The notes below the pieces were generated by a model. That model did no database searches. It was not told the origin of the DNA and saw only the letters and a list, made by a program, of their open reading frames with translations. From Magnetococcales bacterium (lineage in GTDB: Bacteria; Pseudomonadota; Magnetococcia; Magnetococcales; Magnetaquicoccaceae): a DNA stretch of 33,264 nucleotides. The stretch spans positions 1 to 33,264 of the forward strand of contig JADGBU010000011.1 in NCBI GenBank assembly GCA_015231295.1. Reading direction: 5' to 3'. The position numbers and the translations under genes were made by a program. Below are positions 3,995 to 32,464 of this stretch, in pieces. Numbering within the stretch: position 1 is the stretch's first letter; every line of letters starts with the position of its first letter.

Positions 3995-4966
3995 ATGGCA
4001 GCAATCACAGTGTCGGGGTCGGACGGATTGGTCTGGACCCAACAAAGCGGATACCTGGCCAGCAACAAAATCAGCCGCAAACTGCGAACCGAAACGCCGA
4101 AACTGGCCCGGTTCCGTCAGTTCTGCGACGTGCAAGAGGCGATTGGGTATGGAGGGGGGGACACCTTTCATTGGGATCTACACGGGAACCTGAAAAAGAA
4201 GGGCGGCAAGTTGAGAGAGGGCACCCCGATTCCGGAAACCAGCTTTGACACCGCGCAAGGCACGCTGGTCATCGACGAGTACGGCAATTCCGTACCGTTC
4301 ACGAAAAAGTTGGAAACCCTGTCCGAAATCCCGATCATGGAAGTGGTCAACAAGACCTTGAAGAAGGACTGTGCGGAAGCCCTGGATCGGGAGGCCCACG
4401 CGCAGTTTTCCACCACCCCGATGCGGATGACGGCGGGAACTTCCACCTCCACGGTGACCCTTACCACCAACGGCACCGCCGCCGAGACCAACAACGTCCC
4501 CATGGGCAAAGGGCACGTCAAGTTGATCGTCGAGACGATGAAGACCAACAGCGTGCCCACGCACGACAATGGCGACTTCTACGCTATCGGCAGCTTCTTT
4601 GCCTTCCGGCAACTCAAGAGCGATCTGGAGGCGGTGCATCAATACACCGAATCCGGCGCGCAATTGATCATGCGCGGCGAGGAGGGGCGGTACGAAGGAT
4701 GCCGTTTCGTCGGTCAGAACAACATCGCCGCCGGTGTCGGGTCCACGGCAGACGTTGCCTGGACCAACGCCAAAAGCGATGCGGTGTTCTTTTTGGGAGC
4801 GGACACCGTGACCGAGGCGATTGCGGTGCAGGAGGAGATCCGGGTGAAGATTCCCGGCGACTATGGGCGTGACCGTGGTGTGGCCTGGTTTGCCATGGTC
4901 GGATACGCCCTGGCCCGACCGCTCGCGAGTCAGGCCCGCGTCTACATGTGGGACAGCCTGACCTGA
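3995..4966 (+). CDS. Major capsid protein, HK97 fold (N4 gp56-like family)
   Basis: 323 residues with its own good ribosome site (GAGGAG, 3981-3986; ATG 3995). It builds the icosahedral shell. The sequence matches the N4 gp56-like capsid pattern: an early 'LREGTPIPETSFDTAQGTL' (E-loop-like Gly/Thr segment), then 'VIDEYGNSVPFTKKLETLSE', then a long spine-helix-like segment (PIMEVVNKTLKKDCAEALDR). A Thr-rich loop follows at residues about 147-167, and the end is beta-rich (YGRDRGVAWFAMVGYALARP). It is shorter than N4 gp56 itself (about 400 residues) but usual for this wider family. It directly follows the scaffold. A strong hairpin lies just after its stop. Confidence 0.85.
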   Translation: MAAITVSGSDGLVWTQQSGYLASNKISRKLRTETPKLARFRQFCDVQEAIGYGGGDTFHWDLHGNLKKKGGKLREGTPIPETSFDTAQGTLVIDEYGNSVPFTKKLETLSEIPIMEVVNKTLKKDCAEALDREAHAQFSTTPMRMTAGTSTSTVTLTTNGTAAETNNVPMGKGHVKLIVETMKTNSVPTHDNGDFYAIGSFFAFRQLKSDLEAVHQYTESGAQLIMRGEEGRYEGCRFVGQNNIAAGVGSTADVAWTNAKSDAVFFLGADTVTEAIAVQEEIRVKIPGDYGRDRGVAWFAMVGYALARPLASQARVYMWDSLT

Positions 4967-19759: not shown

Positions 19760-22700
19760 ATGAGCACAGAGCAGACAAAATCGTGGGAGGAAATGTTCCC
19801 GGGGACGATCCAAATCGACCCACCAGACCAGTCGCGGACGTGGGGGGAATTTGCCCAGGATGCGGCGCTGTCGCTCGGGAAAGGGGTGGTGGGTCTAGGG
19901 GAAAGTGTGGTTGGCATGGGAGACCTGGCCACCGGGAACCGGGTTGGCCCGGCAATCGACGCTATCGGATCCGGGATTATGGCCCTGGCCGACAAAATGG
20001 GGGTGGCGAGTGCGCTGACCGGAGTGGAAGGTGCTGAAGGCGCGCCATCAGGGCCATGGTATGCGCCGGACAATCCGGTATTTTCACCCAAGCAAACAAA
20101 CGAATGGCTCTCATCACTGCAAAGCCCGCTGCAACAACGCAGTGATCGAGCGGTGCATGAGGCCATGCAGGATGGATTCATGCCGACCGTGAAGGCCGCC
20201 GTGATCAACCCCTCCAGCATCTTGGGAGGGGCCATCGAGGCTGTGCCAGGAATCGTGGGGATCACGGCTGGTGTGAGTGCCCATGCGGCCCGTCTGCTGG
20301 CGAGCCTGGGAGTGAAGGCCGGGACGGCGGAAGCGGCGGCCATCCTGAGCCACCCGAAGGTCATGGCCTCGCTGGCCATGGCATCCGGCATCGGTGAGGG
20401 GGCATTGCAGGCGGGGAGCCTCCAGGAGCAAGCCAGGGAGGAAGGACGGACGTGGGAGCAGTCGGCACCATACGCCATCGGATCCGGTCTGCTGGACGCC
20501 GCCATCACCATGGGAGCGGGGCGCATCCCGGGGCTGGGTGGCGACCTGGAGGCCAAAATGGTGGCGGGGGCACAAGGCGGTGTGCCGCTCAAGGATCGGG
20601 TGGTCAATATTGGCCGGAGCATCCTCGGCGAGGGGGTGGCCGAGGAGCTGCCGCAGTCGTATCAAGAGCAGGTGGCCCAGAATCTCGCAGAGGGCAAGCC
20701 GTGGGATGAAGGCGCGGCTGGTGCGGCTGGCATGGGCATGGTGACCGGCATGGCCATGGGCGGGTCCATGGGCGGGATTCACGAGGCCAGGGGGGCATTG
20801 TCGGGGCAGCCAGGGACGGGGACGGGGACGACGGATCAGACTGATCAACCCCCGCCGCCTGACGCTATGCCACCGGAGGCGCAACCGGATGCAACACAGT
20901 CACCGGATGGTCCACAACAAACCACTGGCGAACCCCCCATTGCACCCCCTGCCCCACCCCAAGATGACCAATTTGGGACAGAGGCGGCACAGGCGCAGGG
21001 CGGCATGATGCCATCACCCACTCCACCACCTCCACCCCCTGCACAACCCGTGGCCCCTGCCATTCAGATCGCACAGGCTCCGACACCGGCCCGGAAAATG
21101 GCAGAGGAGATTATGGCGTCCACCACGCCAGTCCAGACACCAATCTCCACGCCCGACCCGATGGCTATTAATCAGGCCACACCGGAGACCACACCCCCAT
21201 TGCCCCCATCCGAACCGATCCAGCCACAAGCCAAAACCATTCAGATGATCGAACAGGCGTTCGGGAGGCACGGAGTTTCCAGGACGCATCTGGAGCAAAT
21301 GTTGCGCAAACCCCTGGACAGCGCCACCGATGCCGACCTCAACGGGCTGAAAAAATTCAGTGACGCATTCGTGGAAGGATCGCTCAAGCCGGAGGAGGTT
21401 TTTCATGGATTGAGGGTCGAACAGACCCTGAAGAGTCGTCACTACGACGGGACCGCACTATACAACGACGATGGCCGGGCATGGCCCAGCAAACACACTG
21501 CCAGTCGTGAATCTGGCAGTGCCTGGACCACAGCACTCCGAGAGGCCGGGTATGACATCGGTATCGAGCAGCGTGGGAATGGGTGGGTGGTGACGGCGAC
21601 CTCGCCTGGGGAACTGCCGACCGATCAAATCAAGGCTCCGACGCCGGAACCGGCACCAGTTAGTGCAAAAAATGCAACAACTGAGTTGTCAACTGAGGCA
21701 ACGACTTCCGTCGCAATGCAGCCTGAACAATCAGCCGGGTATGATGACATCGGCATCAATGACATCGGTATCAGTGGGGCGCCTTTTGGAGGGAAGCGTT
21801 CCGCGACCATGGCGGCCAGGGCCAGGAAACTGACCAAAACCCATGTTCCGGTCCAGGTGGGGGAAAAGGAGTGGGTGCTGCGGCCCAAGACCGAATCGAC
21901 CCAGACACCACCGCCCGCATCAGAGACGGTACACGGTGAACTGCCGGGGGATGGAGTTTCAGCCAAACCGCACGCCGGTGCGCACATATTCGAGAACGAC
22001 CCGGATTGGGAGCCAGCCAAAAAGAATGGGGATATCGACGCCTCACGACGATTCGCGGAACGAACCTGGACCGCAGAAAACACGGAGGAACTCAAGGCGA
22101 GGCTGAAGGATCCGGCCAATACGATTTTCATCTCGCAACCGAGCAGCAGCGGCGGAAACGTTCTCCCGGTCGGACTGGCTGAGAAATTGGCAGCAAGCCT
22201 GGGGGCGAAATACCTGAACGGCGGGAAATACTTCCTCGCACAGCACACGGAAGAATCGAAAAGAGTTCCGAAAGATCGTCGCGTTTTCCATCCACGGGAT
22301 TACAAAATCATCGACCCCAATGCGTTGAGGAAGGAGACACAAGGCAAAGAGGTGGTGATCGTTGACGACATCTTCACCACGGGCGGTTCTGTTGGACAAC
22401 TCATTCGCGCCATGAAAACAGCCGGGATCGCGACGAAAGCGGCGGCAGGATATGTGGGGGATACCCGGTTGAAACCGGAACCGCAGATCATTTCCGCATT
22501 GCAAAGTGCCATCAGGAATGCCAAACTCGATTTCAAAGGAAAAGATCTGGCGGCTGTCCTGACACGGGCGGAAGTACAGGAAATCACGAGGTTGATCAAC
22601 GATGCGCGCACACCTGAAACCCGACAGACCCTTGCCGGAGAGCTACAAGGGCTACTCTCCAGGGGAGCTGTTGACTCTCCTGGACCAAATCAACAATCCC

Positions 22701-25700
22701 CCTCCTGGGGAATACGGAATCCCGAGGACGACTCCCAAGGAGAAGGTAGCCGCCATGCGGAGTATGATTTTGGAATACCGGATGACCCCGGAACTCAAAC
22801 GGCCTCCTGGGGAGAGGGAGATCGAGCCTCCCAATTTCCGGAACAGGTAAACAGCCCACCTGAATCCCAACAACCCGCGCCACCCAACCAATCAACGCCC
22901 TCCCCCAAAGAGGGCGTTGTCGTTTCTGGGGTGGCAATGCCCCCTACCCAGGAAGAGGAAGAGTCTGACGCGACGGATGCCGGGTCGCGTCAGGTTGGAA
23001 AAAATGCCGATGGCCATGAGGTGTTCGAGGACCAACGCGGCATCCGTTCTTTCGTCGAGAACGGGATCCGCAACACGGAGTCGGTTGCCGTGCGCCCTGG
23101 TGTCGGAATGGGTGTTGATCGTACCCGTGGACGCAAGCCGGAGTTCGTGACGGTTGATGAAAGCCATATGGAACAGAAAACGTCCGGAACCGAAGTTGGA
23201 ATTCCAAAACAGAATGAAATGGTGGTACAATCTGAGCCATCGTCAACCACCAACCCAAAAGGCCAGAACGATGAATATCGACCCGAACATGATCTTGATG
23301 CAACTCAAACAGGACGATCCGGAGGAGTACAAACGGCTGAAAAAAGAGGGGGGGGTGAAGGCCCTGGACGAGTACGTCCGGGAGAAGGAGCGGGAGATCA
23401 GGGATACCCTGCAATACATCACCCCCGTGAACCCGAACGCGGAGTATCCCAACCCGGCGGACGCGGTGATCGCCCGGGAACTGGCCATGAGCTGACCAAT
23501 CATCGGATCCTGCCTGGATCGCTGGAGGAGTCCCGTGGCCCCAAGACCAAGGCCCGGGACAATCTGGCCGCCGTCAAGCTGGTCAAGCAAATCGCTGCCG
23601 AAGGGCGTGCGGCCACTCCGGATGAACAAAAAAGCATCGCCAAATACGTGGGCTGGGGGGGATTGAGCGGGGTGTTCCCGAACCCCAAAGGGCAGATGAA
23701 TCCAGGACTGCGGGAAATCGGGGAAGAATTGCAACAGGTGCTGTCCGGAGACGAGTATGCCACGGCCCGCAAGTCAACCCAATACGCCCATTACACCTCG
23801 GAACCCGTGGTGCGCGCCATGTGGGGGGCGGTGGAGCGCATGGGGTTCAAGGGCGGCAAAGTGTTCGAGCCGGGCATGGGAACCGGAAACTTCGTCGGGA
23901 TGATGCCGGAGGCATTGACGGCAAAATCGGAATACACCGGCGTGGAGATGGATCCCATGACGGCCCGCATCGCCCAAACGCTCTATCCGCAGCACGACAT
24001 TCGGGAGGAGGATTTCACCAAGTACCAAGCCCCGAAAGAGACTTTCGACCTGGCCATCGGCAATCCACCCTTTGCCGACATCCCCATCAAGTCCGATCCG
24101 GCATACGCCAAGCACGCTTTCCTCCTGCACGACTATTTCTTCGCCAAGACCATGGATGCCCTGCGGCCCGGTGGCCTCCTGGCGTTCATCTCATCGGCGG
24201 GCACCCTGAACAAAATGGACCCCAAGGCGCGCAATCATCTGGCGGACCGGGCCGACCTGGTGGGTGCGATCCGTCTGCCGGGAAATGCCTTCGCCAAAAA
24301 TGCCGGAACCGAGGTGACGACGGACATCATCTTCCTGCGCAAACGCGAGGCCGGAGAAAAACCTGGGGATCGCACCTGGACCCAGACCGGCACATTCACC
24401 GGGCCGGACAAGACAGGAGAGATGAAGACCGGGTACAAAAACGCCTACTTCGACGCACACCCGGAGATGGTCCTGGGGGAAGAGGGGTTCTTCGACACCC
24501 TGCATCTCGGGCGGTACGCAGTGCGGGCACGGCCAGGGGATGATCTGGCCAAACTGCTGGAAGAGGCCATTCAACGGCTTCCGGCGGATGTGATGGCAGG
24601 TAAAAAGACGCCCAATGCGCGGGAAAAGCAAACCGACACCCGGGTTGCCGAAACCAAGAACGGATCCTTCTACATGAAGGACGGCGGGCTATTCCAGTTC
24701 GAGGATGGGCGCGGTGTGCCGGTGCGGACACGAGGACCGGGGGTGATCGGCGGCAGGACCAAAACGGAACAGGAGACGGTCAAACGATTGATCCCGATCC
24801 GGGATGCATTGCGGGCAGTATACGCTGCGGATGCAACCAACAACGCCCGGCAAGCGGCCAAAGCCAGAAAGGATCTGAACCGGCTGTACGATGCCTTCGT
24901 GGCGTCCCATGGCCCGATCAACAGAACGGTGGTCACCACCAGTAGGCCAACCCTGATTCAACAGGAAAAGGCCCGGAATGAAGCCCGCGAGCAGTCCGAA
25001 GGCTTTGACGAGGGGTCATTCGACCCGAACGAGATGCTGCTGGCGAATCGACCGCTCAAAGAGATTGCCGAGGCCCGGCAGAAGGCCAGGAATGAGGCCC
25101 TGGCCAAAAAACTGCCCTGGGATGAAGGATCGTTCAACCCGGAAGAAATGCCGGACAACGAGATTTTCCGCTATCCAAACATCGACCCCTTTGCCGACGA
25201 TCCGGAGAGCTACCGGCTGCGCGCCATTGAGGACTATGACCGAGACAGCGGAAAGGCGACCAAGCGACTGGTCTTCACGAAAAACCCGGTGGCCGTGGAA
25301 TCCGCACCAGCCATACGGTCCGTTGGGGATGCCCTGCTGCACGTCCTGAACAAAACCGGACAGGTGGATATCGGGGCCATCATGGAGGTGTCCGGCAAAA
25401 GCCGGGATGCGGTCATCGGGGAGTTGGGCGACAAGGTTTTCCCGTTGCCGGGCAGAAATGACAAGTGGGTGACTCGGGACGAATACCTGTCCGGTCGCGT
25501 CCGGACCAAACTCCAGGAGGCCAAAGAGGCGGCGGAACGGGATCCGGCATTTGAACGCAATGTGGAGGCCCTGGTCAAAGTTCAACCGGCCCCCCTTGCT
25601 CCGGAGGAGATCCGGTTGACCCTGGGCATGAACTGGATCCCGGAGAACATCATCGAGGATTTTGCCACCAAGGGACTCGGATTGAAGCATGCCTCGGTGA

Positions 25701-28700
25701 CGCAGATTGGTGGTCTGGGGGAGTGGCTGGTGCGAGGGGATGAACGCTCGGCAGAAGCCACCAGCGTGTGGGGGACACCCGAGAAATCAGCCATCGAACT
25801 ACTGCGTCATGCCCTCAACAAACAGGTGCCACGTATCCACCACCCGGGAGACGAACCCGGCAAGCAGGGGCCGCTGAATGTGGAAGCCACCGGGGCAGCG
25901 GTCGCCAAATTGCAGGAGATTCAAGAGAAGTTCACGGAATGGGCATCCGGGGTCGATGCGCTGTTCGTGCAGTACAACGAACTTTTCAACAACAACGTGG
26001 TGCCGAACCGGGTGGACGGGGAGTATCTGACCACGCCGGGCGTGCGAGTCGGCTGGGAGTGGCGGCCTCATCAGAAGTCGGTGATCGCCAGGATCATCAT
26101 GCGCGGCAACACCTACATGGGACACTGCGTCGGATCCGGCAAGACCTCGGCCATGATCGGCTCATCCATGGAGATGCGCCGCCTTGGACTGGTGAAGAAA
26201 CCCATGTTCGTGGTGCCGAACCACATGTTGATCCAGTTCACCAACGAATTCTATGACCAATACCCGACCGCCAAAATCATGGTGGCGGACGAGGAGAAAT
26301 TCCACACCTCCCGGCGCAAGCAATTCATTGCCGACGTGGCCAGCCAGGATCTGGACGCGGTGATCATCACCCATTCGGCTTTCGGCATGATCCCGATCAG
26401 TGACGCCTTCCAGAACACAATGCTGGAGGAGCAGGTCGAAATCTACCGCAATGCCATCACCGAGGCCGAAAACGAAAAAGGTGAGGATTCACGCATCACC
26501 ATCAAGCGGCTTGAAAAACAGGTGCAACGGCTGAAAGAACGCATTGCCGGCCAAAACAGCTTGAAGAAAGATCAGGTGTTCACCTTCGAGGAGATGGGGG
26601 TGGACTTCCTGTATGTGGACGAAGCCCACGAGTTCCGGAAACTCTCTTTCCCCACCAAACAGCAATTGAAGGGGATCGACCCGGAGGGGTCCAAGAAGGC
26701 GTGGGATCTGTTCACCAAGACCCGCTATCTGGAGACCGTGCGCCCCGGTCGCAACCTGGTCATGGCATCCGGAACGCCGGTCACCAACACCATGGGGGAA
26801 CTATTCAACCTGTCACGATTCATCCAGCCCAAAGAACTGGAACAGGTTGGGTTGAATCATTTCGATGACTGGTCCTCGATGTTCGGCACCGTCAGCGCCG
26901 ATCAGGAGCAGACCCCGACGGGTGGGTATCAGTTGGTGACCCGGTTCAACCGCTTCGTCAATGTGGCGGACCTGTCCCGCATGGTGCGGCAAAACATGGA
27001 TGTGGTGACCTCCACCCAATTGGGGGAGTTCGTGACACGCCCGCAAAACGAACGCAACCTCCACGTCCTGCCACGCCTGCCCATCCTGCAATCGTTCCAG
27101 AAGCATTTGAGCGAGAGATGGGAAAAAATCAAAAACCGTCACGGCAAACCGAAACCCGGGGATGACATCATCCTGAACATCATCGGGGATGGCCGCAAAG
27201 CATCGTTCGACATGCGGTTGATCGACAAATCTGCCCCTTCCGATCCGGACAGCAAACTGAACACCATCATCCGCAACGTCCATAGCATCTGGCAGAAAAC
27301 CGCCAAACACGAGTTCTTCGACCCGAAGACCGGGAAATCCAAAGGGAGAGGACCAGCATCCCAGATCATCTTCGCTGACCAGGGGGTGAATCCGCTCAAC
27401 GGTTTTCACGCCTATGGGTGGATGGTGCGTGAATTGGTGCGCATGGGGGTGCCCAGAGACCAGATCGCCGTGATCAACGACTTCAAGAGCCATTCCGACA
27501 AGCAGAAGCTGTTCGCCAAGGTCAAAACGGGTGCAGTGCGCATCCTGATCGGGTCCACCGCGAAACTCGGCACCGGGACCAATGTGCAAGACCGCCTATT
27601 CGCCATCCACAATGCGGACCCGCAGTGGTATCCGGCAGCGGATGAACAGCGGGTCGGACGCATCGTCCGCCAGGGCAACTTCAACCGGCATGTCGAGGTT
27701 CACGACTATTCGGTGAAAGGCACCTACGATGCCACCATGTGGAAGATGATGGCCAAAAAGGCCCGGTTCATCGAGGAGTTCTTCCGGGGAGATCCGAACC
27801 TGCGCGAGATGGAAGACCTGGGCGAAGCCAGCATGTACGAACAGGCCAGCGGCATGACCGTGACCGATGACCGGATCCTGCGGCTTGTGACCCTGAAGCA
27901 GGAGTTGAGCGACGCCAAGCGCAAAAAGGTCTCGCATGGAAAAGACCAAGCCCGCGTCCGGGGGAACATTTCCTCCCTATCTGAAGAGATCGATGCGTGG
28001 GGTGAAAAAATCCCGTTGCTCGAAAAGGATCTGGCCCAACGGGTGGATGTGTCCGGGGAGAAATTCAAGGCGGTCATCAACGGCGAAACCCTGACCAAGC
28101 GGGCGGATGTGGGGCAGACGATCCTGCATACCTTCGATACAGCGCCGGCGGGCAAAGACATCAACAAAAAAATCGGCACGATGGGCGGCTTCGACCTACA
28201 CATGCGAATCGCGCACAAGCAGGACATGACCGGAAAATACGATGTGAAGATGATCACCCTTGAACGCCACGGCGGGCCAAGGGAGGTGCGTATCGACAAG
28301 TTCTCCACCGATACCGGTATCGTCCAGTCCCTCGAATACGCCATCCGGACCATCGATCAGGAATTGACCAAAGCCAAGGCCAGGATCAAGGATGCCCGGA
28401 CAGAGTTGGAGGGGTACAAGAAACGGGTGGGAACGCCTTTTGCCGGTCAGGAGAAGATCAACACCCTTCAGGATCAAGTCAACGCACTGGAGGCGGATCT
28501 GATCGCCCATCCGGAAAAGCAAGAGGAGGATGACACGCCGGTTGAAACGTGGAAGCCACCTGCTGACGTAGGCAAAACCGATGAATCACAAGAACCCGCC
28601 AATGGCGGGTTTTTTGATGGGCAGATCAAAGAATCACGACCCCCCACCCCTGCCCCGTCCACCCTGTTCACCGCGTCGTCTCAGCAGGCACTGTCCGATC

Positions 28701-31700
28701 ACCTGGTCAAGGTCGGTCTGGATGGAAAGATCGCGGTCAAGGTGGTGGAGGCATTGCGTGGTGGCGTGGAGCGAAACGGAGCGGCGGGAACCTACCAGAA
28801 CCGGTTGATCGAAATCGCCGCCACGCACGGCAACAAGATGGCGGCCTTGAACCATGAGATCATCCACGCCCTGCGCGATCTTGGGGTGTTGCGCCCTCTG
28901 GAATGGACGGTGCTGAAACGGCATGTGGAAGCTGACGAGGCCCTGATGGAAAGCGTGGCCGAGCGCTACCCGGAACTGACCCATGACGAGCAGGTGGAAG
29001 AAGCCATCGCCGACCGGTTCGCGGAATGGATGGACACCCCTGCCCCCAAGGGATTCATCGAAAAGGCGTTCACCCGTTCCAAGGCGTTCATCGAGGCGGT
29101 GGGCAATTGGCTGCGAGGAAACGGTTTCAGAAGCGCACGGGAGGTGTTCAAGGACATCGCATCCGGAGAGGTAGGGAAACGGCACTCCGTGCGACACCCG
29201 GAGACAGGACGCTATGCCCCTGGCAAGGCCAAGGAGATGCGCGTGTTCGGGCGGGAAATCACCAAGCGTGGCCTTTCCGTCTGGGCCAAGGATCTGCTCA
29301 CCCAAAGCAAGCCGACCCTCTTGCAGTTCCTGGGAGGACGGCAGTTGACCGAGATGTACGCCAGAATCTTCCCGAACGACGGAGAGCATTTGAAGGAGTT
29401 GACCGGACTCATTCAGTCCCAAGATGCCGACATGAACAAATTGGCCCACGAGGCCAGCAAGGTAACGGATGATTGGGAAAAGCTTCCCAAAAATGAATCG
29501 GACAACCTGACCGAGGTGATGCACTCCGGGACGGTCTGGGAGTATCACCCGGATGAACCGTTCGATGACAACGATCTGATCCAGGCACGGTTGATGGCCA
29601 AGATGAGCAACCGGGCGGTGACGGCCTTCCAGCGTGGACACAACCTCAATGATCTATCCCCGGCGGAACAACAGGACTTCGACAAACTGACCGCTGCGGT
29701 CCATCACGGGAAAATGGTGCGCGAGGTGGTTGGCTTCGCCCTGCAAAACGGGATGACCAAGCAACAGATCCTCTCCACCCTGGCCAAAAATGCGGACCGC
29801 TTACCCATTCCAACGGACAAGGCCGCAGCGTTGGAATCCTACAATACCCTGAGCGGTGAAGAGAAAATCGAATACCGGACGGCTGGGGCGGCAGGATATG
29901 GCCGTGCTGTCCGGAAACTGGATGCTTTCAAGAATGGGCACAAGATTGACAACCTGAACCAGGAGGAAAAAGCGGAATACGACCGGCTGACGGCAGCCCT
30001 GACCAAGCACTCCAAACAGGAACGCTTCGAGTCCGAGCGGTCCAGGGAGGCCGCCAAGGGGATCGACCTGTACCAGCAGTTGAGCGAGGAGGCAAAGAAG
30101 GTCTATCGGTCAGCCAGGGAGATGTATGCCAAGCGGTATGCCGATGTGCGCAGCTCTCTGGAGGAGCAAATCAAAGACAACAGCACCATCAAGCCAAAGG
30201 AGGCACAACGGCTGATCGCCTCCTTGAGGCTGAAATTCGAGAAGAACATGGTCAGTCGCGGCCCCTACTTCCCCTTGAGCCGGTTCGGCAAATACACGGT
30301 CTTTGCCAGCGGCAGAGACCTGGAGACCTTCTTCGGAATGGCCGAAACCCCTGCCGAACAACGGGAACTGGTCCAGGCGTTGCGGGAAAGCGGATACCAG
30401 ATCATCGAGACCGGATTCAACGGCGAGTTCACCCGGAAGCAACGGGAGGTGGCCCCGCAATTCGTCAAGGAGGTAATCACGATCCTGGATGGGGACATCT
30501 TCGACAGCAAGGCGGTCAAGGAGTCCAAGGAGTTGGAGCGGTCCCGAGAGGCCATGAAGGATGCGGTCTGGCAGATGTATCTGGAAACCATGCCGCAATT
30601 CAGCATCCGCAAAAAGTTCATCCACCGGAAGAAAACCGCCGGGTGGTCTCAAGACGCCTTGCGCGCCTTTGCCCAGCACATGTTCCACGCCTCCAAACAG
30701 ATTGCCCGCATGCGCTACGGCTACAAAATGCAAAACGAACTGGATGCCATGACGGAAGAGGTGACAGGCCGCAAAACGGTCGTCAAGGAGGTGGAAATCG
30801 ATGGCAAGACCTTCCCGAAGGTGATGACGGAACGGATGAAACCGGAGGAGATGGTGACTCCGGAAAACAAGGTGCTGGCCGGACAAGTTCTGGATGAGAT
30901 GGTCAAGCGGCACGAGCAGGTAATGAATCCTCCCGGATCCGGATTGGCGAACCGACTGAATGCCGCCGGGTTCCTGCTCTATCTGGGTCTCTCCCCCGCA
31001 TCCGGGCTGGTCAACCTGTTGCAGACCCCCATGGTGGCCATCCCGATCATCGGGGCACGCTACGGCAACCTCAAGACCTGGAAGGTCTACCGGGACGTGG
31101 CCATGGAGTACAAAAAAAAGGCCGGTTTCCTGACCGACAATCCCCTCTTGAGTGAAGACGAGCGGAAGTTGATGAAAAAACTGTCCGAGGATGGGACCAT
31201 CGATGTGACCCAGACTCACGACTTGGCGGGCTTGGGGGGCGATGAAGGGTTGAACCCGTTGCGTGGGAAGACGCGCCAGTTCATGCAAATGGCCGGGTGG
31301 TTCTTCCATGCGGCGGAACGGATCAACCGGGAAAGCACAGCCTTGATGGTCTATCGCCTGGCCAGGGGGAAAGGGATGAACCATGAAGAGGCACTGGTGG
31401 AGGTCAAGGATCTGGTTCACAAAACCCACTTCGACTATTCGGCCAACAACCGGCCCCGGATCATGCGCGGGGATGTGATGCGGGTGATCACGCAGTTCAA
31501 GCAGTACGGTCAGAATACGGCCTACACCCTGGCCAGGGCTGCCTACCTGTCCGTGAAGGGGCAATCCCCTGAAGAGATCCGGGAAGCCCGTCACCAACTC
31601 ACATCCCTGCTCCTGACCCATTTCATGGCCGCCGGAGTGGCGGGGTTGCCCCTGGTGTGGGTGGTGCCCATGGTCATGAGCGCAGTGGCCGGGGCGTTCG

Positions 31701-32464
31701 GGGACGATGACGAGTATTACGATCCGGAGGCGTATTTCCGGAACCTGTTGAACGACTCGATAGGCCAACTCCCCGGCCAAATGATTGCCAAGGGTCCGGT
31801 GAGCGCCTTGACCGGATTGGACTTCGCGTCGCGCCTGGGGCTGGCGGATCTGTTCTGGAGGTCCACCGATCAGCACATGGAGGGACGAGACGCCTTTGCC
31901 CACGGACTGACACAGATCCTCGGCCCGATGGTGGGATACGTCGGACAGGTGTTTGCCGCATCACAAGTGGCCGGAGACGGCAATCCGGAGCGCGCCTTGG
32001 AAATGGTGGTGCCAAAGGCGGTCCGGGACGTGATGAAGGCCGGTCGCTATGTGGCCGATGGTGGGGTGATCACCATGAAGGGAGACCGGGTGTTGGAGGA
32101 CCAACTTTCCGCAACCGAGTTGATGGCCCAAGCCATTGGGTTCTCCCCCTTGCGGGTGAACGAGCAATATTCCGCCAACACGACGATCCGCAATGCCGAA
32201 CGGTTCGTCAACGACCGGAGGCAGAAACTCCTGAACCAGTATGCCGAAGCGTGGAAACAACAGGATCAGGAAGGGATGGAATCAGCCAAGGAGGCGTTCA
32301 TGGCTTTCAACCAGGAGCATCCGCGCTATGCCATCACCGGGGACACTGTGATGCACTCCTTGAAAGCGCGGGAGCAAATGCGCCGGCGTGCGGTCGGTGG
32401 GATGGTGGTCAATCCGAAGTTGGCGGAACTGAGAGAATTGGGGCGGTATGGGGCTGGTGGATAA
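19760..32464 (+). CDS. Giant polyvalent protein (PRTase, N6-adenine methylase, SNF2-like helicase, zincin, LPD38)
   Basis: 4,234 residues; ATG 19760 follows GGAGGG. Order: residues 1-345, a Gly/Ala-rich hydrophobic head (AIEAVPGIVGITAG; GVAEELPQSYQEQVAQN) as in ejected virion proteins; 350-460 Pro-rich; about 740-950 phosphoribosyltransferase-like, with EVVIVDDIFTTGGSVG (864-879) as PRPP loop; 1268-1530 DNA adenine methylase with VFEPGMGTGNF (1368-1378) and NPPF (1435-1438); about 2100-2720 SNF2-type helicase with Walker A VGSGKT (2124-2129), DEAH (2287-2290) and motif VI DEQRVGRIVRQ (2628-2638); about 3010-3110 zincin with HEIIH (3032-3036) and EEAIAD (3080-3085); then helical LPD-type sequence and an LPD38-like end (about 3840-4050) with a membrane-like helix near 3950-3980. 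This matches the DarB-like polyvalent proteins of phages, thought to be injected with DNA to block restriction. In two stretches (about 948-1031 and 1172-1246) coding signal lies in the +1 frame. Confidence 0.88.
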   Translation: MSTEQTKSWEEMFPGTIQIDPPDQSRTWGEFAQDAALSLGKGVVGLGESVVGMGDLATGNRVGPAIDAIGSGIMALADKMGVASALTGVEGAEGAPSGPWYAPDNPVFSPKQTNEWLSSLQSPLQQRSDRAVHEAMQDGFMPTVKAAVINPSSILGGAIEAVPGIVGITAGVSAHAARLLASLGVKAGTAEAAAILSHPKVMASLAMASGIGEGALQAGSLQEQAREEGRTWEQSAPYAIGSGLLDAAITMGAGRIPGLGGDLEAKMVAGAQGGVPLKDRVVNIGRSILGEGVAEELPQSYQEQVAQNLAEGKPWDEGAAGAAGMGMVTGMAMGGSMGGIHEARGALSGQPGTGTGTTDQTDQPPPPDAMPPEAQPDATQSPDGPQQTTGEPPIAPPAPPQDDQFGTEAAQAQGGMMPSPTPPPPPPAQPVAPAIQIAQAPTPARKMAEEIMASTTPVQTPISTPDPMAINQATPETTPPLPPSEPIQPQAKTIQMIEQAFGRHGVSRTHLEQMLRKPLDSATDADLNGLKKFSDAFVEGSLKPEEVFHGLRVEQTLKSRHYDGTALYNDDGRAWPSKHTASRESGSAWTTALREAGYDIGIEQRGNGWVVTATSPGELPTDQIKAPTPEPAPVSAKNATTELSTEATTSVAMQPEQSAGYDDIGINDIGISGAPFGGKRSATMAARARKLTKTHVPVQVGEKEWVLRPKTESTQTPPPASETVHGELPGDGVSAKPHAGAHIFENDPDWEPAKKNGDIDASRRFAERTWTAENTEELKARLKDPANTIFISQPSSSGGNVLPVGLAEKLAASLGAKYLNGGKYFLAQHTEESKRVPKDRRVFHPRDYKIIDPNALRKETQGKEVVIVDDIFTTGGSVGQLIRAMKTAGIATKAAAGYVGDTRLKPEPQIISALQSAIRNAKLDFKGKDLAAVLTRAEVQEITRLINDARTPETRQTLAGELQGLLSRGAVDSPGPNQQSPSWGIRNPEDDSQGEGSRHAEYDFGIPDDPGTQTASWGEGDRASQFPEQVNSPPESQQPAPPNQSTPSPKEGVVVSGVAMPPTQEEEESDATDAGSRQVGKNADGHEVFEDQRGIRSFVENGIRNTESVAVRPGVGMGVDRTRGRKPEFVTVDESHMEQKTSGTEVGIPKQNEMVVQSEPSSTTNPKGQNDEYRPEHDLDATQTGRSGGVQTAEKRGGGEGPGRVRPGEGAGDQGYPAIHHPREPERGVSQPGGRGDRPGTGHELTNHRILPGSLEESRGPKTKARDNLAAVKLVKQIAAEGRAATPDEQKSIAKYVGWGGLSGVFPNPKGQMNPGLREIGEELQQVLSGDEYATARKSTQYAHYTSEPVVRAMWGAVERMGFKGGKVFEPGMGTGNFVGMMPEALTAKSEYTGVEMDPMTARIAQTLYPQHDIREEDFTKYQAPKETFDLAIGNPPFADIPIKSDPAYAKHAFLLHDYFFAKTMDALRPGGLLAFISSAGTLNKMDPKARNHLADRADLVGAIRLPGNAFAKNAGTEVTTDIIFLRKREAGEKPGDRTWTQTGTFTGPDKTGEMKTGYKNAYFDAHPEMVLGEEGFFDTLHLGRYAVRARPGDDLAKLLEEAIQRLPADVMAGKKTPNAREKQTDTRVAETKNGSFYMKDGGLFQFEDGRGVPVRTRGPGVIGGRTKTEQETVKRLIPIRDALRAVYAADATNNARQAAKARKDLNRLYDAFVASHGPINRTVVTTSRPTLIQQEKARNEAREQSEGFDEGSFDPNEMLLANRPLKEIAEARQKARNEALAKKLPWDEGSFNPEEMPDNEIFRYPNIDPFADDPESYRLRAIEDYDRDSGKATKRLVFTKNPVAVESAPAIRSVGDALLHVLNKTGQVDIGAIMEVSGKSRDAVIGELGDKVFPLPGRNDKWVTRDEYLSGRVRTKLQEAKEAAERDPAFERNVEALVKVQPAPLAPEEIRLTLGMNWIPENIIEDFATKGLGLKHASVTQIGGLGEWLVRGDERSAEATSVWGTPEKSAIELLRHALNKQVPRIHHPGDEPGKQGPLNVEATGAAVAKLQEIQEKFTEWASGVDALFVQYNELFNNNVVPNRVDGEYLTTPGVRVGWEWRPHQKSVIARIIMRGNTYMGHCVGSGKTSAMIGSSMEMRRLGLVKKPMFVVPNHMLIQFTNEFYDQYPTAKIMVADEEKFHTSRRKQFIADVASQDLDAVIITHSAFGMIPISDAFQNTMLEEQVEIYRNAITEAENEKGEDSRITIKRLEKQVQRLKERIAGQNSLKKDQVFTFEEMGVDFLYVDEAHEFRKLSFPTKQQLKGIDPEGSKKAWDLFTKTRYLETVRPGRNLVMASGTPVTNTMGELFNLSRFIQPKELEQVGLNHFDDWSSMFGTVSADQEQTPTGGYQLVTRFNRFVNVADLSRMVRQNMDVVTSTQLGEFVTRPQNERNLHVLPRLPILQSFQKHLSERWEKIKNRHGKPKPGDDIILNIIGDGRKASFDMRLIDKSAPSDPDSKLNTIIRNVHSIWQKTAKHEFFDPKTGKSKGRGPASQIIFADQGVNPLNGFHAYGWMVRELVRMGVPRDQIAVINDFKSHSDKQKLFAKVKTGAVRILIGSTAKLGTGTNVQDRLFAIHNADPQWYPAADEQRVGRIVRQGNFNRHVEVHDYSVKGTYDATMWKMMAKKARFIEEFFRGDPNLREMEDLGEASMYEQASGMTVTDDRILRLVTLKQELSDAKRKKVSHGKDQARVRGNISSLSEEIDAWGEKIPLLEKDLAQRVDVSGEKFKAVINGETLTKRADVGQTILHTFDTAPAGKDINKKIGTMGGFDLHMRIAHKQDMTGKYDVKMITLERHGGPREVRIDKFSTDTGIVQSLEYAIRTIDQELTKAKARIKDARTELEGYKKRVGTPFAGQEKINTLQDQVNALEADLIAHPEKQEEDDTPVETWKPPADVGKTDESQEPANGGFFDGQIKESRPPTPAPSTLFTASSQQALSDHLVKVGLDGKIAVKVVEALRGGVERNGAAGTYQNRLIEIAATHGNKMAALNHEIIHALRDLGVLRPLEWTVLKRHVEADEALMESVAERYPELTHDEQVEEAIADRFAEWMDTPAPKGFIEKAFTRSKAFIEAVGNWLRGNGFRSAREVFKDIASGEVGKRHSVRHPETGRYAPGKAKEMRVFGREITKRGLSVWAKDLLTQSKPTLLQFLGGRQLTEMYARIFPNDGEHLKELTGLIQSQDADMNKLAHEASKVTDDWEKLPKNESDNLTEVMHSGTVWEYHPDEPFDDNDLIQARLMAKMSNRAVTAFQRGHNLNDLSPAEQQDFDKLTAAVHHGKMVREVVGFALQNGMTKQQILSTLAKNADRLPIPTDKAAALESYNTLSGEEKIEYRTAGAAGYGRAVRKLDAFKNGHKIDNLNQEEKAEYDRLTAALTKHSKQERFESERSREAAKGIDLYQQLSEEAKKVYRSAREMYAKRYADVRSSLEEQIKDNSTIKPKEAQRLIASLRLKFEKNMVSRGPYFPLSRFGKYTVFASGRDLETFFGMAETPAEQRELVQALRESGYQIIETGFNGEFTRKQREVAPQFVKEVITILDGDIFDSKAVKESKELERSREAMKDAVWQMYLETMPQFSIRKKFIHRKKTAGWSQDALRAFAQHMFHASKQIARMRYGYKMQNELDAMTEEVTGRKTVVKEVEIDGKTFPKVMTERMKPEEMVTPENKVLAGQVLDEMVKRHEQVMNPPGSGLANRLNAAGFLLYLGLSPASGLVNLLQTPMVAIPIIGARYGNLKTWKVYRDVAMEYKKKAGFLTDNPLLSEDERKLMKKLSEDGTIDVTQTHDLAGLGGDEGLNPLRGKTRQFMQMAGWFFHAAERINRESTALMVYRLARGKGMNHEEALVEVKDLVHKTHFDYSANNRPRIMRGDVMRVITQFKQYGQNTAYTLARAAYLSVKGQSPEEIREARHQLTSLLLTHFMAAGVAGLPLVWVVPMVMSAVAGAFGDDDEYYDPEAYFRNLLNDSIGQLPGQMIAKGPVSALTGLDFASRLGLADLFWRSTDQHMEGRDAFAHGLTQILGPMVGYVGQVFAASQVAGDGNPERALEMVVPKAVRDVMKAGRYVADGGVITMKGDRVLEDQLSATELMAQAIGFSPLRVNEQYSANTTIRNAERFVNDRRQKLLNQYAEAWKQQDQEGMESAKEAFMAFNQEHPRYAITGDTVMHSLKAREQMRRRAVGGMVVNPKLAELRELGRYGAGG
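22602..22850 (+). CDS. Overlapping +1-frame ORF inside the giant gene, first
   Basis: 82 codons in the +1 frame relative to the giant ORF. From about 22610 the third codon positions are GC-rich in this frame and not in the giant frame, so the selected protein here appears to be this one. It looks like a real protein: 'SYKGYSPGELLTLLDQINN', 'PKEKVAAMRSMILEYRM' and a basic tail. CACGAGG (22584-22590) may serve as a weak ribosome site, although its spacing to ATG 22602 (11 bases) is long. Forty-four bases after its TAA comes a terminator-like hairpin (22894-22918). It could be a separate small gene, or the true end of the upstream part reached by frameshift. The giant frame reads through it as Gly/Ser/Pro-rich linker. 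Confidence 0.45.
   Translation: MRAHLKPDRPLPESYKGYSPGELLTLLDQINNPPPGEYGIPRTTPKEKVAAMRSMILEYRMTPELKRPPGEREIEPPNFRNR
22894..22926 (+). terminator. Terminator-like hairpin inside the giant ORF (weak U-run)
   Basis: Perfect 9-bp stem AACGCCCTC (22894-22902) / GAGGGCGTT (22910-22918), 7-base loop, followed by GTCGTTTC. It is translated in the giant frame as a linker (NQSTPSPKEGVVVSG). ATG 22937 follows in the giant frame and could once have begun a separate gene. The T-run is short, so termination may be partial. Confidence 0.5.
23271..23495 (+). CDS. Overlapping +1-frame ORF inside the giant gene, second
   Basis: 74 codons from ATG 23271, again +1 to the giant frame, with AAAAGG about 9 bases upstream and a -10-like TACAAT at 23225-23230. 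Third positions are very GC-rich in this frame, while in the giant frame they are the AT-rich second positions of these codons. The protein is a normal charged helical one: 'MILMQLKQDDPEEYKRLKKE', 'KALDEYVREKEREIRDTLQY', then 'NPNAEYPNPADAVIARELAM'. The giant frame in the same stretch is Gly/Arg/Pro-rich and looks like out-of-frame translation. This is stronger evidence than for the first nested ORF. Function unknown. Confidence 0.55.
   Translation: MNIDPNMILMQLKQDDPEEYKRLKKEGGVKALDEYVREKEREIRDTLQYITPVNPNAEYPNPADAVIARELAMS
28593..28616 (+). terminator. Intrinsic-terminator sequence inside the giant ORF
   Basis: Stem AACCCGCC (28593-28600) / GGCGGGTT (28604-28611), 3-base loop, six T's (28610-28615). 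It is identical in stem and T-run to the terminator at 19704-19736. It is in frame and encodes EPANGGFFDG in the linker between the helicase-associated coiled coil and the zincin domain. By sequence it is the strongest terminator in the window, yet translation continues through it for 3.8 kb. Confidence 0.7.

Follow-up and report, generated by a model that had tools for sequence, protein, structure and literature searches.

A DarB-like polyvalent gene on a Magnetococcales phage contig with two putative small genes in its +1 frame, one of them from a widespread TnpV-like family

The stretch of DNA analysed here, hereafter the window, comprises 33,264 nucleotides (nt) of contig JADGBU010000011.1 of a Magnetococcales bacterium (assembly GCA_015231295.1). 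The terminal open reading frame (ORF) of this phage contig is a giant ORF that encodes a DarB-like polyvalent protein, that is, an N6-methylase and an SF2/SNF2 helicase fused within one giant phage protein. It matches PHROG 10089 'DarB-like antirestriction' with 2107 bits and contains the Pfam domains N6_Mtase, Helicase_C and LPD39. Two further ORFs lie fully inside it in the +1 frame, in stretches that we call block 1 and block 2 (Table 1). We infer, with a probability of roughly 0.92, that both are independently translated small genes lying within the giant gene.

Table 1. Features of the giant ORF and of its nested genes, in positions of the window (SD, Shine-Dalgarno; aa, amino acids).
Feature	Positions	Strand	Details
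Giant ORF, DarB-like polyvalent protein, host of the nested genes	19760-32464	+	4234 aa; PHROG 10089 and Pfam matches
SD-like site GAGG ahead of ATG 22602	22588-22591	+	-5.4 kcal/mol with the anti-SD
Putative nested gene 1 (block 1)	22602-22850	+	+1 frame, ATG to TAA, 82 aa
Terminator-like hairpin	22893-22919	+	repeated in-frame linker unit coding TPS.KEGV.VSG
Weak SD-like site AAAAGG ahead of ATG 23271	23257-23262	+	-3.2 kcal/mol
Putative nested gene 2 (block 2)	23271-23495	+	+1 frame, ATG to TGA, 74 aa; TnpV-like family
Start of the DarB N6-methylase domain, giant frame	23496-24700	+	anchor for every relative

The change of frame can be seen both in base composition and in codon usage. GC content at codon positions 1, 2 and 3 of block 2 is 0.85, 0.61 and 0.31 in the giant frame and 0.60, 0.31 and 0.84 in the +1 frame; outside the blocks, the giant frame has values of 0.61, 0.41 and 0.75. 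The codon-usage log-odds per codon for the giant, +1 and +2 frames are -0.51, +0.58 and -1.21 in block 2, and -0.30, -0.10 and -0.97 in block 1. The corresponding values in the flanks are +0.27, -0.55 and -0.66 just before the blocks and +0.34, -0.55 and -0.69 just after them. The excess of the +1 frame over the giant frame (0.20 in block 1, 1.09 in block 2) was matched in none of 744 windows taken elsewhere in the giant ORF. The +1 coding pattern in the blocks exceeds chance; block 2 shows a very strong frame-switch signal and block 1 a modest one. A first-pass annotation of this DNA had reported a switch of coding signal to the +1 frame in two blocks ending in normal stops; its coordinates proved exact and the per-frame check bears out the switch in both. 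Its further statement that the giant frame is normal again after each block holds after block 2, and between the blocks the giant frame is again the best one, though weakly (log-odds of 0.01 versus -0.29). The Gly/Pro/Arg-rich character that it had described for the giant frame over the nested gene is also found. With 38% Pro, Gly and Arg and 9% strongly hydrophobic residues, that part of the giant protein looks like a flexible, probably disordered linker.

We then compared the window with two related loci, L007, a paralog of 74-86% identity on another contig (C296) of this genome, and L024, a third copy in a genome of the same genus (G005). Both +1 ORFs are retained in all three. The gene 2 protein is 84% identical in L007 and 77% identical in L024, with the same length throughout. 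The gene 1 protein is 82% and 59% identical, respectively, and is shorter in L024, where a stop precedes a second stretch that still aligns with the C-terminus. Ratios of nonsynonymous to synonymous changes (N/S), counted for each frame, are 0.31-0.41 in the nested frame versus 1.3-2.0 in the giant frame for gene 1, and 0.24 and 0.48 versus 2.19 for gene 2. The nested frame is under purifying selection, and the giant frame across the blocks is not. Broken +1 frames in relatives, which the first-pass annotation had named as fatal to its proposal, were not what we found in L007 and L024, save for one duplicate of gene 1 described below. Sequence error, its other such ground, is very unlikely because the three loci agree. 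The two nested genes are separated by a giant-frame module (22937-23270; 9050-9300 in L024) that seems to have been exchanged for another short domain in L024, where both of the flanking nested genes are retained.

The adjacent DarB methylase domain was used as an anchor to collect relatives. The start of this domain is 40-85% identical to 12 other loci (alignment A3) and matched 106 phage records. We gathered 95 loci in this way, drawing on viral contigs, phage records and genomes, and scanned them frame by frame. A +1 ORF occupies the same slot before the methylase domain in 91 of them, with a length of roughly 75-145 codons and an end at most about 135 nt away from the start of that domain. 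As an out-of-sample homology test, a hidden Markov model (HMM) was built from loci L030-L057 only and run on 1138 ORFs. It recovered gene 2 of the window (E 1.7e-8), of L007 (1.3e-7) and of phage DC1 (1.7e-4), together with some 60 further in-slot matches; nearly all held-out loci were matched in the expected slot, and the first off-slot match had an E-value of 0.25. A conserved Pro stands at the same place in 79 of 81 family proteins; in an alignment of 52 sequences that includes the window (A4), this Pro is invariant and a Gly is conserved in at least 90%. Gene 2 of the window shares these traits, being a +1 ORF directly ahead of the methylase domain with the invariant Pro and the near-invariant Gly. 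Among 20 independent locus pairs, N/S is below 1 in the nested frame in all 20 and above 1 in the giant frame in 18, and substitutions that are synonymous in the nested but not in the giant frame reach 1.43 times expectation. Judged on these comparisons, gene 2 almost certainly represents a deeply conserved, unannotated family of nested genes in dozens of phages and mobile elements that are only distantly related.

The same results bear on the idea that the giant frame is the sole coding frame and that the +1 pattern merely reflects constraints on the composition or RNA structure of a repetitive linker. Gly/Pro/Arg-rich linkers such as this one can indeed bias codon positions. However, the +1 translations can be aligned as homologous proteins even between deeply diverged loci, the held-out HMM test contradicts the idea, substitutions are concentrated at nested third positions, and homologues of the nested protein exist as standalone genes. 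We give this explanation almost no credence.

Phages carrying the nested gene include VvAW1, Itty13, LASTA, SopranoGao, Atu_ph08, POI1126, Pavtok, PEp14, Stean, Mwe-JY07, DC1, CSP3, BcepIL02, BcepMigl and JC1. In LASTA, Itty13, Atu_ph08, POI1126, Pavtok and Mwe-JY07 the +1 frame, an SD-like site and the lack of any host-frame stop were checked directly. None of the phage records inspected annotates the nested gene separately, and the match tables give only other, larger products. Searches with the small proteins of the window against Pfam, PHROGs, NCBIfam, phages and plasmids (tblastn) and viral contigs returned nothing beyond the genus; the family came to light only once loci gathered by their DarB domain had been scanned frame by frame. 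The record of the Pseudomonas phage Itty13 (L127, MW460249) shows hypothetical genes in place of the DarB-like region, on the strand opposite to the DarB frame, apparently by a miscalled strand.

The first-pass annotation had left three origins for the +1 signal: overprinting in interdomain linkers, fusion of once-separate genes after stop loss, or programmed frameshifts giving shorter products that end at 22850 and 23495. Frameshifting, in which ribosomes would slip from the giant frame into +1, draws some support from the window, where the +1 frame is open for 120 nt upstream of gene 2. Translation signals speak for internal starts instead. The GAGG site of gene 1 recurs in L007 and L024 at -5.2 kcal/mol, and the SD-like site of gene 2 reaches -5.1 kcal/mol in L007 and -6.4 kcal/mol in L024. 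For the family, starts were sought 8-30 codons upstream of the conserved Pro, and most lie 15-18 codons upstream of it. The start codons at 80 loci are 74 ATG and 6 GTG, and an SD site of -6 kcal/mol or better, in many loci AGGAGG, is present in 81% of them versus 5% of 3200 controls. The nested frame is closed by a stop 6 nt before the ATG of gene 1 in the window, and no more than 30 nt upstream of the start in 29 of the 80 family loci. Protein homology, too, begins at about the nested ATG. Conserved internal starts at most loci, with their SD sites and the nested-frame stops upstream, thus favour internal initiation, and we regard programmed frameshifting as very unlikely.

One sequence looks otherwise. 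In Sinorhizobium phage PBC5 (L028/L132), an upstream ORF continues through the nested sequence in the frame of the nested protein and terminates there, so that it shares about 580 nt with the DarB frame. This arrangement may be a sequencing indel or a true frameshift. It is a single case, with an overlap of the kind expected from an indel. PBC5 also explains a match to phrog_938 that had raised the possibility of the nested protein being the in-frame C-terminus of an endolysin-type protein; we rejected that possibility, an indel or frameshift being simpler.

The giant frame itself has been kept open. Not one giant-frame stop occurs inside the 80 nested genes, versus about 250 expected from synonymous-codon resampling of the nested proteins, and standalone TnpV genes, on which no host frame depends, contain 1-5 stops in the corresponding frame in nine of nine cases. 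Given the absence of stops and the lack of amino-acid constraint in 18 of the 20 pairs, the frame has therefore been maintained open with little weight on its amino acids. This bears on recent fusion, according to which separate genes lost their stops and the giant frame through the blocks is accidental or an assembly error. Standalone TnpV-family genes exist, and the giant frame across the blocks appears unselected in its amino acids, as such a fusion would have it. However, the giant frame is open in nearly all of the 95 loci, which come from unrelated contigs, the congener and the paralog agree with the window, and JC1 gp69, a giant DarB-like protein, was detected in virions (PMC9144972). 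We consider a recent fusion even less probable than frameshifting. A fusion in the very distant past may be right, because TnpV-family genes also occur standalone; it is the recency of stop loss that conflicts with the relatives, essentially all of which have an open giant frame across the nested gene. Overprinting in interdomain linkers, supported in both blocks by relatives, frame-specific selection and internal start sites, is the reading that we retain.

The two nested genes differ in age and spread: gene 2 is old and widespread, and gene 1 is new and local. Outside the three close relatives no counterpart of gene 1 was found, nor did it match any family, and a reading of it as a diverged copy of gene 2 was rejected. 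Gene 1 is very probably best read as a young, lineage-specific nested orphan gene.

Several points weigh against two nested, independently translated genes. The SD site of gene 2 in the window is weak, although its ATG stands at the conserved position. Internal starts of the family were picked as the best SD among candidates, with controls handled identically. The family loci are interrelated and their counts are not independent, forming 33 clusters at 50% amino-acid identity, and the support for gene 1 comes from three related loci. A duplicate of the gene 1 region (L007, 160-498) is without the nested start and has acquired a nested-frame stop. The AlphaFold model of gene 2 (predicted local distance difference test score, pLDDT, of 80) has three helices, one of them long; fold searches with it gave no significant match, and so no function from structure, and neither did a sequence search against solved structures. 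As to the L007 duplicate, it keeps the giant frame open, as a decaying nested gene.

At the level of sequence profiles, the nested family is homologous to TnpV (PF14198). Comparison of the nested-family profile (A5) with the TnpV profile (A6) gave an E-value of 6.3e-8 and a probability of 94.7%. Pfam TnpV was matched by 25 of the 52 nested proteins at E<=0.05, and no other family by more than one of them. The HMM from nested genes of other phages (L030-L057) also recovers the TnpV of L016 (E 1.1e-3). Gene 2 of the window (23271-23492) has no Pfam match even at E 0.05, the TnpV gathering score being 27 bits, and direct comparison of profile A1 with TnpV was not significant; since the Pfam threshold is not reached, we call the window copy TnpV-like and not TnpV. 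The nested family shares a helical core, the conserved Pro and Gly and a C-terminal AEE motif with TnpV of Tn4451-type and other mobile elements, the window protein being shorter and without the N-terminal GDYY part. Some large ORFs hold TnpV itself as a nested +1 gene, namely in Maledivibacter (L016, L110), a Lachnospiraceae genome (L018/L116) and a Virgibacillus plasmid (L121). The large ORFs of L016 and L018 carry the DarB domain, and that of Virgibacillus is annotated as SNF2-related. Elsewhere TnpV is an ordinary separate gene, and most annotated TnpV genes are standalone. The Lachnospiraceae genome G062, the source of L018, holds 14 TnpV copies above the Pfam cut-off, and a check of ten of them showed nine standalone copies and a single one nested within a large ORF. 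A role of TnpV in excision has only been postulated, from its likeness to lambda Xis (PMC3158075).

The terminator-like hairpin that the first-pass annotation had placed after block 1 is real, with a minimum free energy of -28.9 kcal/mol (z -4.1) for 22880-22945. Its repeat CGCCCTCNNNNAAAGAGGGCG has five exact copies in the genome, all in forward orientation and only in the polyvalent contigs C53 and C296 (22893-22919 in the window; 109-144, 512-555, 1435-1460 and 2440-2473 in L007). As this is a repeated in-frame linker unit, the hairpin is poor evidence for an independent transcription unit. The linker copies lie close to duplicated modules, and the repeat may mark module boundaries or recombination points. 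Upstream on the same contig are phage genes for a portal (551-2545), a major head protein (3995-4966) and a virion structural protein; an Rfam scan of the window found no family.

Ribosomes on one mRNA would initiate either at the start of the giant ORF or at the internal SD and ATG sites. Gene 2 would yield an all-helical TnpV-like protein of about 74-130 aa, and the giant frame over it would encode, upstream of the DarB methylase-helicase, a flexible linker rich in Pro, Gly and Arg. As for its history, a small gene beside a DarB-type gene may have been overread in the other frame once upstream domains joined DarB, after which neither frame could be lost. The arrangement resembles Rz1 within Rz, where a small gene that has a start of its own likewise lies entirely within a larger gene, in a different frame; JC1 itself has such an embedded gene (PMC9144972). 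Unlike in Rz, the host frame here probably encodes a disordered linker within a giant multi-enzyme protein, and unlike Rz1, the nested gene comes from a mobile-element family that also exists alone.

Bcep22-like and other DarB-like polyvalent proteins (JC1 gp69, DC1, BcepIL02) are of the same type as the giant ORF, and their genes have the nested gene in the same slot as the window. We found no description of it in the open-licence literature on DarB-like polyvalent genes, including the JC1 paper (PMC9144972) and a survey of polyvalent proteins (PMC5512222). P1 DarB is of the same methylase-helicase type; P1 darB begins at the methylase domain, and the HMM found no nested TnpV-like ORF in it. 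DarB antirestriction in P1 needs helper proteins (Ulx, DdrA, DdrB and Hdf), and the JC1 authors report no homologues of these in their phages (PMC9144972). The nested protein is a candidate helper for DarB-type antirestriction. Its strictly kept place before the DarB methylase-helicase suggests that it acts as a partner, though not as an obligate one in every element, since standalone TnpV genes exist. Tentatively, and with more doubt than conviction, gene 2 might serve the DarB methylase-helicase dyad of phages and conjugative elements as a small conserved partner, kept by overprinting in the adjoining linker; overprinted immediately ahead of the dyad, it could hardly be separated from it by recombination. 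It could conceivably act as a packaging or loading factor (for capsid or DNA), as a factor that keeps the enzyme inactive, or as a partner made in the same place.

It seems that the nested family has gone unnoticed in known phages (Bcep22-like phages, VvAW1, LASTA, Pavtok, PEp14 and others) because gene callers retain only the giant frame. It would link phage DarB systems to TnpV of conjugative and mobilizable elements, and offers, for a giant antirestriction protein, a candidate helper that is small and tractable. It would also be a clear example from nature of two reading frames that have stayed joined over a very long time, the protein of one being folded and that of the other probably a disordered linker.

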